Shown: one piece after another, positions 3,392 through 64,000 of the stretch
Layout: each line of letters starts with the position of its first letter
Position numbering within the stretch: position 1 is the first letter of the stretch
Assembly: GCA_947625655.1 (NCBI GenBank)
Contig: CANQPD010000001.1
Coordinates: 124,001 to 188,000 of the forward strand
DNA: 64,000 bases
Direction: 5' to 3'
DNA from: an uncultured Dysosmobacter sp.
GTDB lineage: Bacteria; Bacillota; Clostridia; Oscillospirales; Oscillospiraceae
Translations under genes and position numbers: made by a program
Notes under the pieces: generated by a model
Databases searched by the model: none
What the model was told of the DNA's origin: nothing
What the model saw: the letters and a program-made list of their open reading frames with translations, nothing else

Positions 3392-3984
3392 GAAAAGGAA
3401 AGACATTCATTGTTTCCGGGCCTTCCGGCGTCGGGAAAAGCACGGTGCTGAAGGCACTGCTGGAAAAGCGGAAGGATCTGTATTTTTCTGTTTCCGCAAC
3501 CACCCGGGACCCCCGTCCGGGCGAGCTGGACGGCGTCCACTACCACTTTATGGACGTGGAGTCCTTCCGCAAGTGGATCTCCATGGAGCAGTTTTTGGAG
3601 TACGCGGAGTACGTCGGGAATTTCTACGGTACGCCGAAGCGCTATGTGGACGAGGCCATGGAGCACGGCAGGGACGTGATTTTGGATATCGAGGTGCAGG
3701 GCGCCATCCAGGTCACCAGCAAGCGGCCGGAGACGGTGCGCATCTTCATTGCCCCGCCCAGCTGGGCGGAGCTGGAACGGCGGCTGACCGAGCGCGGCAC
3801 CGACAGCAAGGATAAGATCCAGAAGCGATTGCTGCGGGCCAAAGTGGAATTTCAGACCGCCCATACCTATGATTATTTCGTCATCAACGACACCGTGGAA
3901 AACGCGGTGAATGAGCTGGACGCCATTATGACCGCGGAGCACTGCAAGCCCAAGGAGCGCATGGAGATCATCAGCGGAAAATAA
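3388..3984 (+). CDS. gmk: Guanylate kinase
   Basis: A 198-aa guanylate kinase, converting GMP and ATP to GDP and ADP in purine nucleotide synthesis. The P-loop GPSGVGKS lies at residues 11-18, followed by the GMP-binding region ([10 protein letters not shown] type, here [15 protein letters not shown]). The length is normal for the family. The start codon overlaps the remA stop (ATGA 3388-3391) behind a GGAGAGAGG Shine-Dalgarno, consistent with coupled translation in the conserved cluster. Confidence 0.97.
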
Positions 3985-30351: not shown

Positions 30352-30387
30352 AAAAAAGGAGCGAACGCTGCCGTTCGCTCCTTTTTT
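30352..30387. terminator. Bidirectional terminator
   Basis: A perfect 16-bp palindrome (30352-30367/30372-30387) with loop CTGC and six A/T on each side lies between convergent genes. It overlaps the recombinase stop codon on the minus strand. Confidence 0.92.
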
Positions 30388-31405
30388 ATTCAGGCTCCTT
30401 TGATTTCTTCGGTGTTTTCACATGGGACAGGGGATTTGCCTTCGCGGCCACCCGCAGGGCTTCATTGTCGATATGGGTGTAAATTTCAGTCGTGTTCAAA
30501 TGGTCGTGGCCCAAAACCTCCTGCACGGCCCGGACGTCCACGCCGTTTTGCAGCATCAGCGTGGCGGCGGTGTGCCGCAGCTTGTGGGAGGAATACTGGG
30601 TGCTGTCGATCCCGGCGGCGCCCAGCCGTTTTTTCACCATGGCGTGGACCATGGAGCGGCTGATGCGCTCGTTTCGGGAGGACAGGAACAGCGCGTTCTG
30701 ATCCCGGCCCACAATGGGCCGCCGCACCGCCAAATAACGCTTTAAAGCCTCCTGACAGGCTTCGTTCAGGTAGATGATGCGGACTTTGTTGCCTTTGCCC
30801 AGCACCCGCAGGGCTTCGCCCTGGATGTCGTTGAGATTCAGGCCCACCAGCTCGGAGATCCGCAGCCCGCAGTTGAGGAACAGCGTCAGGATGCAGTAGT
30901 CCCGTTCCTGGTTTTTGCCATCCACGGACTCCAAAAGCTGCAAACTTTCGTCTAAAGTCAGGTATTTCGGCAATGTTTTCTTCAGTTTTGGGGAGTCGAT
31001 ATCTTTGACAGGATTTTCACGAAGCAGGTGCATCTTGTTGGTCAGGTAATTATAAAACGACCGGATGGTGGCAATTTTTCGGGCACGGGACGCGGCGTTC
31101 AGGCCGTAGTCGGAATTGCGGCTATTCGGATAGCGGACGCGGTCGCGGCTGAGATAGGTCATGTAGCCGTAGATATCCGTCAGGGTCACGCTAGCCACGA
31201 AATCCAGGTCCACATCCATAATGTCGATCTCATCCAGCGCTTTGCCGGCAAGCTGCGGATCGCGGATCTGTTTCATGTAGCGGAAGAAATTCCGCAGGTC
31301 CAGAAAGTATTCATCGACCGTGCGCTTGGAGTGCGCCTTGACGGTTTCATGGTATGAAAGAAAATCCCGCAGGATCTGCGGCGCTTCGGTGCGGTAATCT
31401 GGCAT
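30386..31405 (-). CDS. Tyrosine recombinase, XerC/XerD-like
   Basis: A 339-aa site-specific recombinase with an N-terminal SAM-like core-binding domain (about residues 5-125) and a complete catalytic domain: R182 (CGLRISE), K204, H274 and R277 (HKLRH), H300 (LGH) and nucleophile Y309 (TEIYTHI). The start ATG 31405 gives the usual Xer length; the frame is open upstream to 31810 through a noncoding-looking stretch, and the ribosome site is weak. A dif-like palindrome (31530-31555) lies 125 nt upstream, the arrangement seen for single-recombinase Xer systems. xerD lies at the right edge of the window. Confidence 0.88.
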   Translation of the reverse strand: MPDYRTEAPQILRDFLSYHETVKAHSKRTVDEYFLDLRNFFRYMKQIRDPQLAGKALDEIDIMDVDLDFVASVTLTDIYGYMTYLSRDRVRYPNSRNSDYGLNAASRARKIATIRSFYNYLTNKMHLLRENPVKDIDSPKLKKTLPKYLTLDESLQLLESVDGKNQERDYCILTLFLNCGLRISELVGLNLNDIQGEALRVLGKGNKVRIIYLNEACQEALKRYLAVRRPIVGRDQNALFLSSRNERISRSMVHAMVKKRLGAAGIDSTQYSSHKLRHTAATLMLQNGVDVRAVQEVLGHDHLNTTEIYTHIDNEALRVAAKANPLSHVKTPKKSKEPE

Positions 31406-31529
31406 AACTGTAACGAGGTATGGAAGCGCGTAAAAATTTGCTTCAGTTCCGTCATAAAAGCGCGGAACCCCCAAAATCGGCGGCGGATCGGCCTGAAGCG
31501 GACTTACGGCGGTTTTGCTCTCCCCTAAA

Positions 31530-31555
31530 TTGAACAAAATTTTTATTTTGTTCAA
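31530..31555. other. dif-like palindrome, candidate left attachment site
   Basis: Arms TTGAACAAAAT (31530-31540) and ATTTTGTTCAA (31545-31555) flank four T. The size and layout suit a tyrosine-recombinase crossover site. The right part, TATTTTGTTCAA (31544-31555), recurs exactly at 34526-34537 in the same orientation. Confidence 0.5.
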
Positions 31556-31624
31556 AAATATATGGACGATAAAATGGGCCGCCCCCCTTCGGGGTCCGTC
31601 CCGAAATTTGTAGTCCATATATTT
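31556..31624. repeat. Long stem-loop beside the dif-like site
   Basis: AAATATATGGAC (31556-31567) pairs perfectly with GTCCATATATTT (31613-31624). The 45-nt loop holds a GC-rich inner hairpin (CCCC-TTC-GGGG near 31584-31594). It abuts the dif-like palindrome and may be a recombinase-binding, replication or packaging structure. Confidence 0.5.
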
Positions 31625-31872
31625 CTGCAAGGGTCTCGCCCTGGCTGCGCCAGGCTGCGCGCGGAAAATCGCGCCCGCAGCGCACCGGAAAGCAACGGAT
31701 TTTCCGCGCTTGGGCTTCGCCGCTGCGACCAACAAAATAAGGTCTTTTGTGCAATTTCGCCGCCAATGACCCCGGCTTTTCCGGGCCACAGGCGGGCCAA
31801 CATACCCCACGTCCTCCTTTCAAAGAAAGTCCCGCCGCCAAGGCCGCTCTACCGGCCGTGGCGCGGATTTTA

Positions 31873-31917
31873 TTTGTGTCAAACCCCTTCGTCAAAAGTG
31901 CAAGGGGTTGACACAAA
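31873..31917. repeat. Imperfect 16-bp inverted repeat with the GGGGTTGAC motif
   Basis: TTTGTGTCAAACCCCTT (31873-31889) pairs with AAGGGGTTGACACAAA (31902-31917) with one bulged A and a 12-nt loop. The right arm holds one copy of GCAAGRGGTTGAC (31900-31912); others are at 33724, 33824 and 34388. The rest of 31625-31956 holds no gene I can support. Confidence 0.55.
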
Positions 31918-31956
31918 CAGTATAGAGCGCCACTAGGCCGGTTGTCAACCAAAAGT

Positions 31957-32493
31957 TTACCGCCTACCGCCCCGGCTGGCCCGCCGTCTCTCCCGCTGCT
32001 GGGCCTTGGATGACATCAAAACGTCTGCCATGGCGTAGATCATCGTCACCGACGGCGAGTTGTGCGCAAGCGCCCGCTGCACCCTGTCAATGCTGCCGTA
32101 CTTCTCCATGAGCCGCACGGCGTAGACCTTGCGGAAGCTGTGGGTCCCAACGTTCTGTTCCAGCCGGAACGCCTTGGCGGCCCGCTTGATGTCCTTCCAA
32201 ACGGCCTGCCGGGTCTTGTGGGTCCCCGGCTTCGCGCCGGGGAACGCCCACACCGGCCCCGCCTGAGCGAACACCTGTTCTAGAAGCGGCTTGGGCAGGC
32301 CGCACCGGTGCATCTTGCCCGTCTTTTTTTCCCGGACCCACATGGACGGGCGCAGCTGCTCCGTCCGCAGTTCCAAAACGTCCGAAATGCGAAGCCCCGT
32401 GTGTAAAACGACCTCCATAATCAGGGCGTTTTGCGGCGTCAGCGCCGCCAGGATGTGTCCAACCTCCCGGTTCAAAAGGTATTCCGTGGTCAT
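31957..32493 (-). CDS. Small tyrosine integrase (catalytic domain only)
   Basis: A 178-aa phage-integrase family protein consisting almost only of the catalytic domain: R35 (TGLRISD), a Lys in the beta-hairpin (about 56-60), H118-x-x-R121 (HSFR), H144 (LAHN) and nucleophile Y153. The N-terminal arm- and core-binding domains of full integrases are missing, and the C-terminus is very basic. Such short integrases occur on small plasmids. It is transcribed in the same direction as the rep gene. It may catalyse integration of the element or resolve its multimers. Confidence 0.82.
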   Translation of the reverse strand: MTTEYLLNREVGHILAALTPQNALIMEVVLHTGLRISDVLELRTEQLRPSMWVREKKTGKMHRCGLPKPLLEQVFAQAGPVWAFPGAKPGTHKTRQAVWKDIKRAAKAFRLEQNVGTHSFRKVYAVRLMEKYGSIDRVQRALAHNSPSVTMIYAMADVLMSSKAQQRERRRASRGGRR

Positions 32494-32665
32494 GCTCCAC
32501 CGTCCTTTCCCCCGGTTTTTCCGGGGTCATCGCCGCCCCCAAAGCGCCGGGGCCCGCCCCGGCGCGGGGGTCGGCGGGCGTGGTCGACAATCCCCAAAAT
32601 GTAAACCACGCCCAGCATACAAATTTCCGTGAGGGGGCTTTTTGGAGCCCCCCTCTCCTCCTGCC

Positions 32666-32696
32666 GGTTCCCTAACAAGGATCTTGTTAGGGAACC
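32666..32696 (-). terminator. Perfect hairpin at the rep stop codon
   Basis: GGTTCCCTAACAAG (32666-32679) pairs perfectly with CTTGTTAGGGAACC (32683-32696); the rep stop codon TAA lies within the stem. A second hairpin (GGGGGC/GCCCCC with an A-rich loop, about 32633-32652) follows on the minus strand. No clean T-run follows, so it may protect the mRNA end or act as a weak terminator. Confidence 0.55.
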
Positions 32697-33556
32697 TCTC
32701 CGCCCTCCGTCCGCAGCCGCACAAAGCGGCTCCACGGCAGCCCGTCCACGGCGAAGGGCTCCGCCTCCCCGCTGGCCGCCAGGGCATCAAAGTCCACGTC
32801 GCACCACTCCACGGCGGGCCGCCGCAGCTTGCCGCCGGAGTAGTACCACCTGCCCCCGATCTTCTCCTGCTGCTTGGCCACGTACTTGCAGCAGTACCCC
32901 ACGGCAGCCGCCCGCTCGCCGTAGAGGCGGATGGCCGTGCTGAACCCCCAGCCCCATGCGGGCAGGTTATAGACGGGGTGGCCGCCCTTGTCCCGGTGGC
33001 CACTGTCGGCCACGGGCAGGGCGTCGTTGAAGAATCCGTGGAAGTGGATGGCCCCGTCCTTGTGGTGCTCCGGCACCAGGACGTAGGCCAGCCCCTCCCG
33101 GCGGACCCGGTTGTCCAGCCAGTGGCTCAGGTGCCTGACCACCTCCACGGGGTCATAGCGGTCAATGCGCCGCTGATCCAGGGTCAGCGTCACGAAGTAG
33201 GCCCAGTCGTTGCACAGACCCAGGTCCCGCACGGCCACCCGTGCGCGGCGCTGCGCCCGCTCCCTGCTGGCCCTCTGGCGGGCCTGTAAGGCCGCCTCAT
33301 CCACGCCGTCATCCTGGATGGCTGCCCGCTCTAAAACCGCGTAGGCGTCCTCCTGGCGCTTTCTGCGGCGAGCGCGGGCCAGCACGGGGTCGGTCTGCTC
33401 CAGAAGCTGGGCATGGATGTCCCGGACGTCCTCGTCCCGGTCATACCGGGCCGCTTCCCGCTCCACGGCCCCGCCCCCAAAAGGCGCGGACGCCGCGACG
33501 ATCTCCGCGCCCCCGTCCGGGTAGCGCTTGATCCGGCAATTGTGCAGAAGCTCCAT
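32687..33556 (-). CDS. HUH rolling-circle replication initiator (two-tyrosine type)
   Basis: A 289-aa Rep protein. Motif 1 FVTLTLD (121-127), the metal-binding HFH of the HUH motif (171-173) and motif 3 YCCKYVAK with two tyrosines (Y221, Y225) are all present. The YxxKYxxK pattern is that of phiX174 protein A and of gokushovirus or inovirus initiators, which nick and re-ligate DNA with alternating tyrosines. A basic helical region (about 60-110) precedes the catalytic core. The start ATG 33556 (weak GGAAA site) is preferred; ATG 33577 would add seven residues. The predicted nick site lies about 100 nt upstream. Confidence 0.85.
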   Translation of the reverse strand: MELLHNCRIKRYPDGGAEIVAASAPFGGGAVEREAARYDRDEDVRDIHAQLLEQTDPVLARARRRKRQEDAYAVLERAAIQDDGVDEAALQARQRASRERAQRRARVAVRDLGLCNDWAYFVTLTLDQRRIDRYDPVEVVRHLSHWLDNRVRREGLAYVLVPEHHKDGAIHFHGFFNDALPVADSGHRDKGGHPVYNLPAWGWGFSTAIRLYGERAAAVGYCCKYVAKQQEKIGGRWYYSGGKLRRPAVEWCDVDFDALAASGEAEPFAVDGLPWSRFVRLRTEGGEVP

Positions 33557-33649
33557 AGGCTTTTCCGTGGGGGACATTCTCCCGCTACAGCGGCCCCGGC
33601 TGGCGGGCTGACGCGCCCTCTGCCGTGGGCCTGTGACGGAATAATGTCC

Positions 33650-33709
33650 TAATATCAAGTAAGGGGCACCGCACCGCCGGAAGGGGCTTGACAAGCCCGT
33701 CCGGCAGTG
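33650..33709 (-). other. Candidate double-strand origin of the rolling-circle element
   Basis: On the minus strand, ACTTGATATTA (33660-33650) is identical to the phiX174 origin core, where protein A cuts CTTG/ATA; the predicted nick lies between 33656 and 33655. Right beside it is a long hairpin with arms CACCGCCGGA (33672-33681) and TCCGGCAGTG (33700-33709) and an inner stem GGGCTTG/CAAGCCC (33684-33690/33692-33698). A nick site beside a hairpin, upstream of a matching two-Tyr Rep, is the layout of rolling-circle origins. Confidence 0.65.
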
Positions 33710-33716
33710 CTAGGAT
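33688..33716 (+). promoter_or_regulatory. Consensus promoter inside the origin hairpin
   Basis: TTGACA (33688-33693), exactly 17 nt, then TAGGAT (33711-33716), pointing away from rep. The -35 box lies in the loop side of the origin hairpin, so Rep binding could block it. Confidence 0.75.
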
Positions 33717-33722
33717 AATACC

Positions 33723-33785
33723 TGCAAGGGGTTGACGCAAGTCAACCGAGGGCGTCCAGGCTTCGGCCTGGGCGCTCTCTTTTTA
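33723..33785 (+). ncRNA. Candidate 60-nt two-hairpin small RNA
   Basis: The promoter at 33688-33716 leads straight into GGTTGAC-GCAA-GTCAACC (33730-33747) and then a 14-bp terminator stem with a TTCG loop (33748-33761/33766-33779) and a T-run. The resulting RNA would be about 60 nt with no room for a gene. It runs opposite to rep and upstream of it. A counter-transcribed copy-control RNA is the simplest reading, provided the rep mRNA starts further upstream than 33785. Confidence 0.6.
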
Positions 33786-34525
33786 TGCCCGCCCCTCCCG
33801 TCCCCTCCCGTGGGAGGGGAAGCGCAAGAGGTTGACGGCCTGCGGGGGACGGCTCCGCTGCGCTCCGCCCCTCGGGCCTGCGGCCCTCGGCTGGCGCTCC
33901 CGCGCCGCAGCAAAGACCGGGATGTCCGGCGCTCAACGGTAGGGAGCGGCGGCCATTGGGGCGCTTCTCGCTGCGCTCGTCGGCCCCGCCTGCCGTCGCT
34001 TTGTCCCCTCCGCGCCTCCGCGCTCCGGGGACTATTCGCGGTACTCCGCTCCATTGCAATCGGCGGCCCCCGGGGCCGCCGGTTGCGTCGCTCCGCCCCG
34101 CGCCTGGTCGCGGTCGCGCGCGGTGCCTGTCGGCAGGCTGGTGTGGGTCCCCCCGCCGTGCCCGCCCGGCCCTCCGGGCCGCATGCGGGCGTCCGGCTCC
34201 CCCCTCGGTGGGGCGCGCTCTCCGGTGCTCGTCGCCACGCCGGTCGGCGCGGGGGCCTCCCCAGGGGCGGGGGTCTACCTGCCCCGCCCCTGGTCTGCAA
34301 GCCCCTGCGTCTGCCCAAGCGCACCTCTCGCGGCACCCTCTCCCCCTTCCCCCTCCCGTCCCCCTCCCCCTCCGGGGGCGGGGGAGCGCAAGAGGTTGAC
34401 GCCCGCTGCGGCGGGGACGGGAGAATCCGCTGCGGCGGAGACGGGCGGCGGCCTCTATCCAACGCAGCATAAAAAAAGTGCCCCCGCCTGTGGCTGCTCC
34501 ACCCGGCGAAAAGGCACAAAACACG
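33786..34525. other. Gene-free GC-rich stretch rich in hairpins
   Basis: About 740 bp of very high GC. Long frames are open on both strands at once, as expected when stop codons are rare, and none shows a domain or ribosome site. It contains a 15-bp stem with a one-base loop (34056-34070/34072-34086), a CCCCTCCC-GT-GGGAGGGG hairpin near 33802-33820, and two direct copies of GCGCAAGAGGTTGACG (33822 and 34386). A single-strand origin or packaging signal would fit this position. Confidence 0.45.
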
Positions 34526-34537
34526 TATTTTGTTCAA
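34526..34537. other. Candidate right attachment core
   Basis: TATTTTGTTCAA, identical to 31544-31555. To its left, CACAAAACA (34515-34523) resembles the missing palindrome arm imperfectly, as expected for a hybrid attachment site. Confidence 0.45.
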
Positions 34538-34650
34538 TTAACCCTATACCCCCAATTCCTCCTCTCTCCGAAATTGCTTTTCATGCATATACATAAAATC
34601 CGTTCCTTTGCGGAAAGCTAGTCCAAACAACAACAGAACGGATGATCGCT

Positions 34651-63934: not shown

Positions 63935-64000
63935 TTACGCTCTTGGATGGGCCTTCTGATACACGTCCTTCAGCTGCCGCTTCACCACATGGGTGTAGAT
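63935..64000 (-). CDS. xerD: Tyrosine recombinase XerD, C-terminal end only
   Basis: The last 21 residues (IYTHVVKRQLKDVYQKAHPR then A) before TAA 63937-63935. The tyrosine is the nucleophile position of Xer recombinases and KxxHPRA is the usual XerD ending. The rest lies outside the window, to the right. Confidence 0.82.
   Translation of the reverse strand: MYTHVVKRQLKDVYQKAHPRA

Follow-up and report, generated by a model that had tools for sequence, protein, structure and literature searches.

How could a block of two genes, one for a rolling-circle Rep and one for a short tyrosine recombinase, have come to lie exactly inside what appears to be the chromosomal dif of a Dysosmobacter? The block sits in a 64,000-nucleotide stretch of an uncultured Dysosmobacter sp. 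(GenBank assembly GCA_947625655.1, contig CANQPD010000001.1; G000:C1:124001-188000 in our numbering), which we call the window and to whose positions bare coordinates refer; the assembly as searched has 3,150,186 bases in 47 contigs. We consider it quite probable that the block represents a small rolling-circle plasmid which entered dif by a folded-strand mechanism like that of phage CTXphi. That it lies exactly in dif, that relatives have empty sites, and that an intact dif remains on the xer side with a degenerate one on the other side is shown by genome comparison. The host gene and the ends are as follows.

30386..31405, minus strand: host dif-linked Xer-type tyrosine recombinase, 339 aa (PF00589, 4e-40)
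31529..31556, no strand: chromosomal dif at the left junction (attL), palindromic arms, 6-bp centre TTTTTA (conserved palindrome beside xer; GC-skew turn 4.5 kb off)
31544..31555, plus strand: direct repeat copy 1, TATTTTGTTCAA (exact 12-mer search)
31556..34537, no strand: integrated element, 2,982 bp (repeat spacing, occupied versus empty loci)
34503..34537, no strand: attR, the left half of att1 with left arm and centre degenerate, and a right arm identical to that of dif (arm table, duplex search, junction comparison)
34526..34537, plus strand: direct repeat copy 2, TATTTTGTTCAA (exact 12-mer search)

An original prediction, made from the letters of this stretch, had an element between direct 12-bp copies, the left one half of a clean dif-like palindrome near a Xer-like gene and the right one with a degenerate second arm, and these claims are borne out. 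Exact TATTTTGTTCAA occurs twice in the whole 3.15-Mb assembly, both times on the same strand, with no reverse-strand match and none for the reversed 12-mer used as a control, and the copies are 2,982 bp apart from start to start. The left junction reads TTGAACAAAA TTTTTA TTTTGTTCAA, a clean palindrome, and at the right junction the arm AGGCACAAAA is degenerate and the centre is CACGTA. A chance repeat was considered and rejected, since there are just two exact copies, relatives have kept the palindrome, and some of them have the site empty.

Is the palindrome really dif? At most of the same-genus loci fetched, ATTGAACAAAA TTTTTA TTTTGTTCAA stands directly upstream of xer, and the sequence around it varies. 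With up to 2 mismatches the palindrome is present in 74 of 200 family genomes (reversed control, 0 matches). Among 95 loci, which had been chosen by their xer gene, their Rep/Int genes or the palindrome, 68 carry xer with a palindrome no more than 600 bp away (up to 5 of the 22 arm bases being allowed to mismatch); of the remainder, at the thresholds used, 16 gave no match to xer, and in 11 the palindrome was missing from the vicinity of xer. Cumulative GC skew on the 383,950-bp contig C1, positive before and negative after, has its maximum at 151,064, which is 4.5 kb from the palindrome at 155,530. Two relatives assembled as one contig place a dif-type site roughly opposite dnaA: at about 1,538,864 of 3,008,576 (L090:865), with dnaA at 664, in G044, where the site is not beside xer but 6.5 kb from it, and at 1,236,638 of 2,185,546, with dnaA at 295, in G157. 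By position and conservation the palindrome is to be regarded as the chromosomal dif, and the site should serve as a marker of the terminus in these bacteria. By eye, stretches rich in purines (GGGGAG, GAGGAGG, on the same strand as xer) turn up near dif at many loci, in the window for example at 31517-31529 and 34550-34570, flanking dif on both sides; in some genomes they lie on the side of dif away from xer.

The gene beside dif codes, judging by its profile matches, for a XerC/XerD-type recombinase (TIGR02224 XerC 237 bits, TIGR02225 XerD 226 bits, both below cut-off), with near full-length matches of 72-92% identity in 24 of 36 same-genus relatives. A second chromosomal Xer, above the XerD cut-off, lies 32 kb from dif at G000:C1:187935-188813 (window 63935-64000 and beyond); because it is present in addition to the dif-linked Xer, we do not claim a single-recombinase system of the XerS, XerH or XerL kind. 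In G044 and G058 a second Xer-like gene adjoins the first.

Should the block be an insertion, related genomes ought to show the site without it, and they do. The shared order is gh18 - xer - dif - radA, followed by two genes to which we gave the names amidase and cotJB by eye; radA (sms, 584 bits) is the gene to the right of our element. Among the 27 same-genus loci in which both xer and dif were found, 12 are empty: there 241-373 bp separate dif from the end of the radA match, and a second half-site is absent. Eight are occupied, those of G000, G023, G024 and G013 by Rep/Int elements and those of G030, G033, G032 and G141 by larger ones, and for five (G001, G021, G018, G009, G003) a usable radA match was not obtained. 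When the element is subtracted, the dif-radA distance comes to 255 bp in G000, 327 in G024, 320 in G023 and 730 in G013, and to 1038, 349, 308 and 292 bp in G030, G033, G032 and G141, respectively. The flanks of G000, rejoined in silico, match real empty sites across dif. The empty site that the original prediction called for is thus found, and other occupied sites end at the same core rather than having ends of their own.

How closely do the two junctions correspond? The right arm of dif equals that of attR in 16 of 16 rows of our arm table (which omits G232), across five host variants whose right-arm ends differ (TTCAA, TTTAA, TCTAA, TTGCG, TTGAG). Ten of these rows were found via the host arm, at up to 1 mismatch, so that arm identity there is partly a matter of selection; the independent test comes from the six rows for which just the inner core was searched (G257 twice, L209, two Flavonifractor loci, L216). 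The attR centre is 6 nt in the window type and in G141, and 9 or 10 nt in the six core-found rows. The attR left arm is not recognisable in G030, G032 and G058 and is poor in G033.

What points to a folded strand is a second, inverted dif-like site, att2, which went unnoticed in the original prediction.

31730..31763, no strand: att2, inverted dif-like site, putative partner of att1 on a folded single strand (duplex search, covariation)
31553..31627, no strand: long hairpin beside the right arm, within the att1-att2 loop (inverted repeat I3, folding; by z the att windows are not exceptional in the element)

Searching att1 against the next 300 nt, with 300 dinucleotide shuffles for comparison, we find that window att1 34503-34535 pairs with att2 31730-31763 at -25.4 kcal/mol (z -6.3, 0/300 shuffles as low). 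The test set held 16 Rep/Int elements or plasmids, 10 at dif and 6 free or unplaced, together with four phages; Flavonifractor loci L214, L215 and L218, the G232 element, G109 and G218 were left out of it. A partner for att1 was found in all 16, with no shuffle as low in 14 and one in 2. For the other elements at dif, z is -3.3 in G024 (1/300), -8.4 in G023, -4.6 in G013, -11.1 in G257, -9.7 in L209, -14.7 and -12.7 in Flavonifractor, -8.5 in L216 and -6.5 in G058 (with an N gap), all but the first 0/300. For the free or unplaced molecules it is -8.2 in pRGI00952, -8.8 in pRGI01058, -8.0 in pRGI00891, -7.1 in CAMWSZ376 and -6.7 in CAMWSZ443 (0/300), and -3.5 in pRGI00836 (1/300). The four phages at the same dif gave no att pair: z is -0.3 in G030 (103/300), -0.7 in G033 (65), -0.5 in G032 (89) and -1.2 in G141 (37).

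Folding of the att regions of the free plasmids pairs att1 with an inverted downstream dif-like site in five of six (not in pRGI00836, in that window), and att1 of the type with a 9- or 10-nt centre folds likewise. For the window type, att2 was missed at about 110-150 nt downstream, and a longest-run scan hinted at it in G000, G023 and G013. The att1-att2 loop is 165-174 nt in this type. Over the elements together, centre sizes counted by eye are 6-10 for att1 and 6-12 for att2. Across the four window-type elements, 96% of the cells of 25 named pairs are paired and 5 pairs show compensatory change; of 500 shuffles, 0 and 1 come up to these figures, and slid versions are 43-53% paired. As the structure was read from the same sequences, the slid control is generous to it, and the compensatory changes are the stronger support.

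The arrangement is that of a CTXphi-type attP(+), two inverted dif-like sites able to pair on single-stranded DNA around an unequal centre. CTXphi is described as having two dif-like sites in inverted orientation, some 90 bp from each other and with El Tor centres of 12 and 7, folded on single-stranded DNA, and as leaving upon integration one functional dif and two non-functional sites (PMC3089051; PMC5357621). The window likewise has three sites (dif 31529-31556, att2 31730-31763, attR 34503-34537), the latter two an inverted pair with unequal centres predicted to fold on a single strand. Our element differs from CTXphi in having no phage genes, a short tyrosine recombinase of its own, an Oscillospiraceae host, and a Xer gene beside dif.

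Might att1 alone suffice? The plasmid could have entered as ordinary double-stranded DNA through a single att1, as VGJphi does, or LME-1 of Legionella, which is larger than our element, with att2 serving as an accessory or monomer-resolution site. LME-1 (XerL-dif, Legionellales) is described as carrying a dif mimic, near the terminus, with an intact upstream and a modified downstream dif, the modified site reducing excision (PMC9765430). Our element resembles it in the mimic near the terminus and in having one intact and one modified dif. LME-1 differs in its 22-bp att, and the sections consulted describe no folded pair for it (PMC9765430). The att1 of the window type would suit such a course, as it has a normal 6-bp centre with one perfect and one degenerate arm, like LME-1; however, related att1 sites have centres of 9-10 nt between perfect arms, which would be hard to use as a duplex dif but make sense if they form the bulged strand when the site folds, and the pairing with att2 is maintained by compensatory change. 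We judge double-stranded integration unlikely. Still less likely, we think, is that the stem of att1 and att2 serves mainly as an origin of single-strand replication or as a packaging signal: rolling-circle replicons do need such hairpins, but this one has the dif arms at its centre, and it is there that the ten integrated elements in the test set are split.

What does the element itself encode?

31957..32493, minus strand: short tyrosine recombinase Int, 178 aa, catalytic domain only (Phage_integrase PF00589, 3e-21)
32687..33556, minus strand: HUH rolling-circle Rep, 289 aa, start codon chosen by eye (PF23343 REP_ORF2-G2P, 1e-12; phrog_3419, 1.7e-7)

These are the two genes recognised in 2,982 bp; the short integrase and HUH Rep of the original prediction are both real by their Pfam matches (the stretch searched for Rep began one codon inside the ATG). 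The Rep residues that we take to form the HxH and YxxxY motifs are invariant in 4 of 4 aligned Reps, so that the element has the HUH Rep, with HxH and tyrosine motif, of an HUH replicon; the Zot-like ATPase and coat genes of an inovirus are not among its recognised genes. Int residues R35, K60, H118, R121, H144 and Y153, presumably of catalytic type, are invariant in 5 of 5 aligned sequences. Is the element then one of the integrative mobile elements exploiting Xer (IMEX)? Like these it is inserted exactly in the chromosomal dif and has a dif-mimic att, with a functional-looking dif regenerated on one side. The Vibrio phages at dif are described as having no dedicated recombinase of their own (PMC3089051), and because our element has its 178-aa enzyme, we say that it works like an IMEX and do not claim membership.

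Rep/Int elements also stand beside xer in Oscillibacter ruminantium GH1 (G013), Dysosmobacter sp. SUG973 (G024), Candidatus Oscillibacter pullicola (G023), Flavonifractor An82 and AGMB03687 (G241 and G177), F. plautii ATCC 29863 and further metagenome-assembled genomes (MAGs), and the Int family is found in 6 of 200 family genomes scanned, our own included. G257 (L247 5729-12580) has two in tandem, each of 3,417 bp and identical at 3,417/3,417 bases, between dif and copies of the 9-nt-centre site. Kinship of Int is unlike that of the host: G000 Int is 84% identical to that of G024 and 77% to that of G023, whereas Xer and RadA of G000 are 89 and 87% identical to those of G023 and 81 and 81% to those of G024. 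The Rep core differs little (89 versus 87%). Judged by these comparisons, Int identity does not follow the host.

Where does the family live when it is not in a chromosome? Twelve plasmid records match Int at 1e-10 or better, and seven of these are 2.2-3.8-kb circles of uncultured bacteria (pRGI/pRGF), which we take to belong to the rat cecum metamobilome set. They share the short Int and, in four of seven, the att core, and unlike the window element they are free circles; in five of the seven the match is to the Rep_1-type initiator of G058 and not to the Rep of the window element. The rat cecum metamobilome paper reports 83 phage-integrase genes and, in the part of its text available, makes no mention of a dif site (PMC3913684). 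Within the window's own genome, the 3,373-bp contig G000:C44 (L083) has a 77-bp terminal overlap and is therefore a 3,296-bp circular plasmid, with an Int 61% related and a Rep_1-like initiator. The exact ACAAAA-N6-TTTTGT core is present in 6 of 10 free or unplaced molecules, namely pRGI00952, pRGI00836, pRGI01058, pRGI00891 and the MAG contigs CAMWSZ376 and CAMWSZ443, which have no terminal overlap and so are not proven circles. As background, 1,994,254 bp of genomic loci, many chosen for the palindrome, gave 97 core matches, all but 3 of which (on our own contig C1) read as dif-type palindromes or element ends. Two more cores at G000:C1:376912 and 377161 (L075), 249 bp apart near a tyrosine recombinase match, may be another element or an invertible switch.

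One might ask whether the element is instead an inovirus satellite or remnant, packaged by a helper. Its Rep belongs to PF23343, like those of the G030 and G141 elements; 29 phage-database records from animal gut or faeces, which we take to be single-stranded DNA viruses, are matched; and contig C9 of the same genome (L084 7374-11981) has an inovirus-like cluster, a possible helper, with an HUH Rep 44% related and, named by eye, a 545-aa secreted-looking protein and a P-loop ATPase. Against this, the Int family is on free plasmids, five of seven with a Rep_1-like initiator, a scan of viral contigs with the Int alignment (45 stretches) found no relative, and the phages tested at dif have no att pair. 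With Rep alone (2 stretches) such a scan likewise gave no relative, and with the Rep alignment (78 stretches) it gave 10 distant loci. The larger elements at dif have Zot-like ATPases, with Pfam Zot above cut-off in G032 and G232 and below it in G033; in G030 the Pfam search found no Zot, and the inovirus-like label rests on the look of the genes. The G141 (L175) element, at the same dif, has a microvirus capsid (Phage_F, 1e-172). Gokushoviruses use dif, and the gokushovirus or microvirus and inovirus prophages there share the site with our element; unlike it they have capsid or morphogenesis genes, and in the four tested no att2. A satellite or remnant thus seems very improbable. Of the alternatives in the original prediction, a plasmid or a degenerate single-stranded DNA phage, the plasmid gains, with Int relatives on free circles and no morphogenesis gene in the block, and the phage loses, inovirus-like and microvirus elements occupying dif separately. 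The small class of integrated replicon that it proposed holds up, broader than was thought and with a double attachment site.

How, then, would the plasmid have entered dif? We envisage that Rep makes it single-stranded, and the presence of an HUH Rep offers a reason for single strands. The strand would fold into a pseudo-dif: att1, now split between the junctions, and att2 would pair as a stem with two Xer-arm-like segments and an unequal bulge. Host Xer, possibly with Int replacing one partner, would exchange one strand pair with dif, and replication would complete the insertion. The split of att1 would make integration hard to reverse, and the regenerated dif could accept further insertions. 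Which enzyme cuts is a matter of inference, and we favour host Xer, because the phage elements, among whose listed genes no such Int was observed, go to this dif as well. Int may stand in for one partner or have another place of action, as there are Int plasmids with no site. Could Int be the catalyst instead, with dif merely its target? Such a scheme, which overlaps with ours on the folded site, draws on the presence of Int in the four small same-genus elements and, frame-broken, in G058 (the other elements were found through Int and carry no weight here), and on its invariant residues. The phages at dif and the plasmids with Int and no core tell against it, and we hold it to be doubtful. That a family of minimal rolling-circle plasmids of gut Oscillospiraceae integrates as a single strand at dif via a folded att pair, in the manner of CTXphi, with its own catalytic-domain-only Xer-like recombinase, seems to us somewhat better than an even bet.

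Several observations weigh against integration of a plasmid as a folded strand. The data are assemblies, and no activity, excision or free form of the window element was observed in them. The 174-nt loop of the window element is longer than the roughly 90 of CTXphi. Two pairings are weak, that of G024 (-24.4 versus -20.7 elsewhere in its own circle) and that of pRGI00836 (-18.9 versus -15.1 elsewhere), and in local folding the att windows do not stand out from the rest of these GC-rich elements (ranks 11/67, 21/70, 6/64 and 9/61). By exact search the core is absent from C44, pRGF00147, pRGF00030 and pRGF00146, all of which carry Int, so that Int is not tied to dif integration. G218 and G109 have Int and Rep and no xer match in the stretch fetched. 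Finally, radA is 1.6-2.0 kb from dif in G006 (L154) and G214 (L176), where no second half-site is recognised; the extra DNA perhaps represents other or decayed insertions.

IMEX, dif mimics and folded attP sites are already known. Our searches of the open-licence PMC literature turned up no account of plasmids of this kind at dif in Oscillospiraceae, nor of a folded dif att on plasmids. To our knowledge, single-strand integration at dif is known mainly from filamentous phages of Vibrio. A review calls it intriguing how many phages exploit Xer in vibrios compared with other species (PMC3089051). In gut commensals we now meet a CTXphi-like layout again, in small plasmid-like elements whose insertion site is also used by inovirus-like and microvirus elements. 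If our reading is right, single-strand integration at dif would extend to plasmids and to Gram-positives, and these elements would be a natural intermediate between Xer/dif and the integron system, in which the substrate of a tyrosine recombinase is likewise a folded strand. It becomes testable how host Xer shares a single reaction with a tyrosine recombinase that is encoded on a plasmid and reduced at its N-terminus.

A rep origin and a promoter-terminator RNA, which the original prediction also placed inside the element, were not confirmed: an Rfam search of the element gave two matches, both under gathering scores and taken as chance. At 32666-32696 of the window, inside the element's strongest folding window, there is a perfect 14-bp hairpin with a 3-nt loop that overlaps the end of rep.

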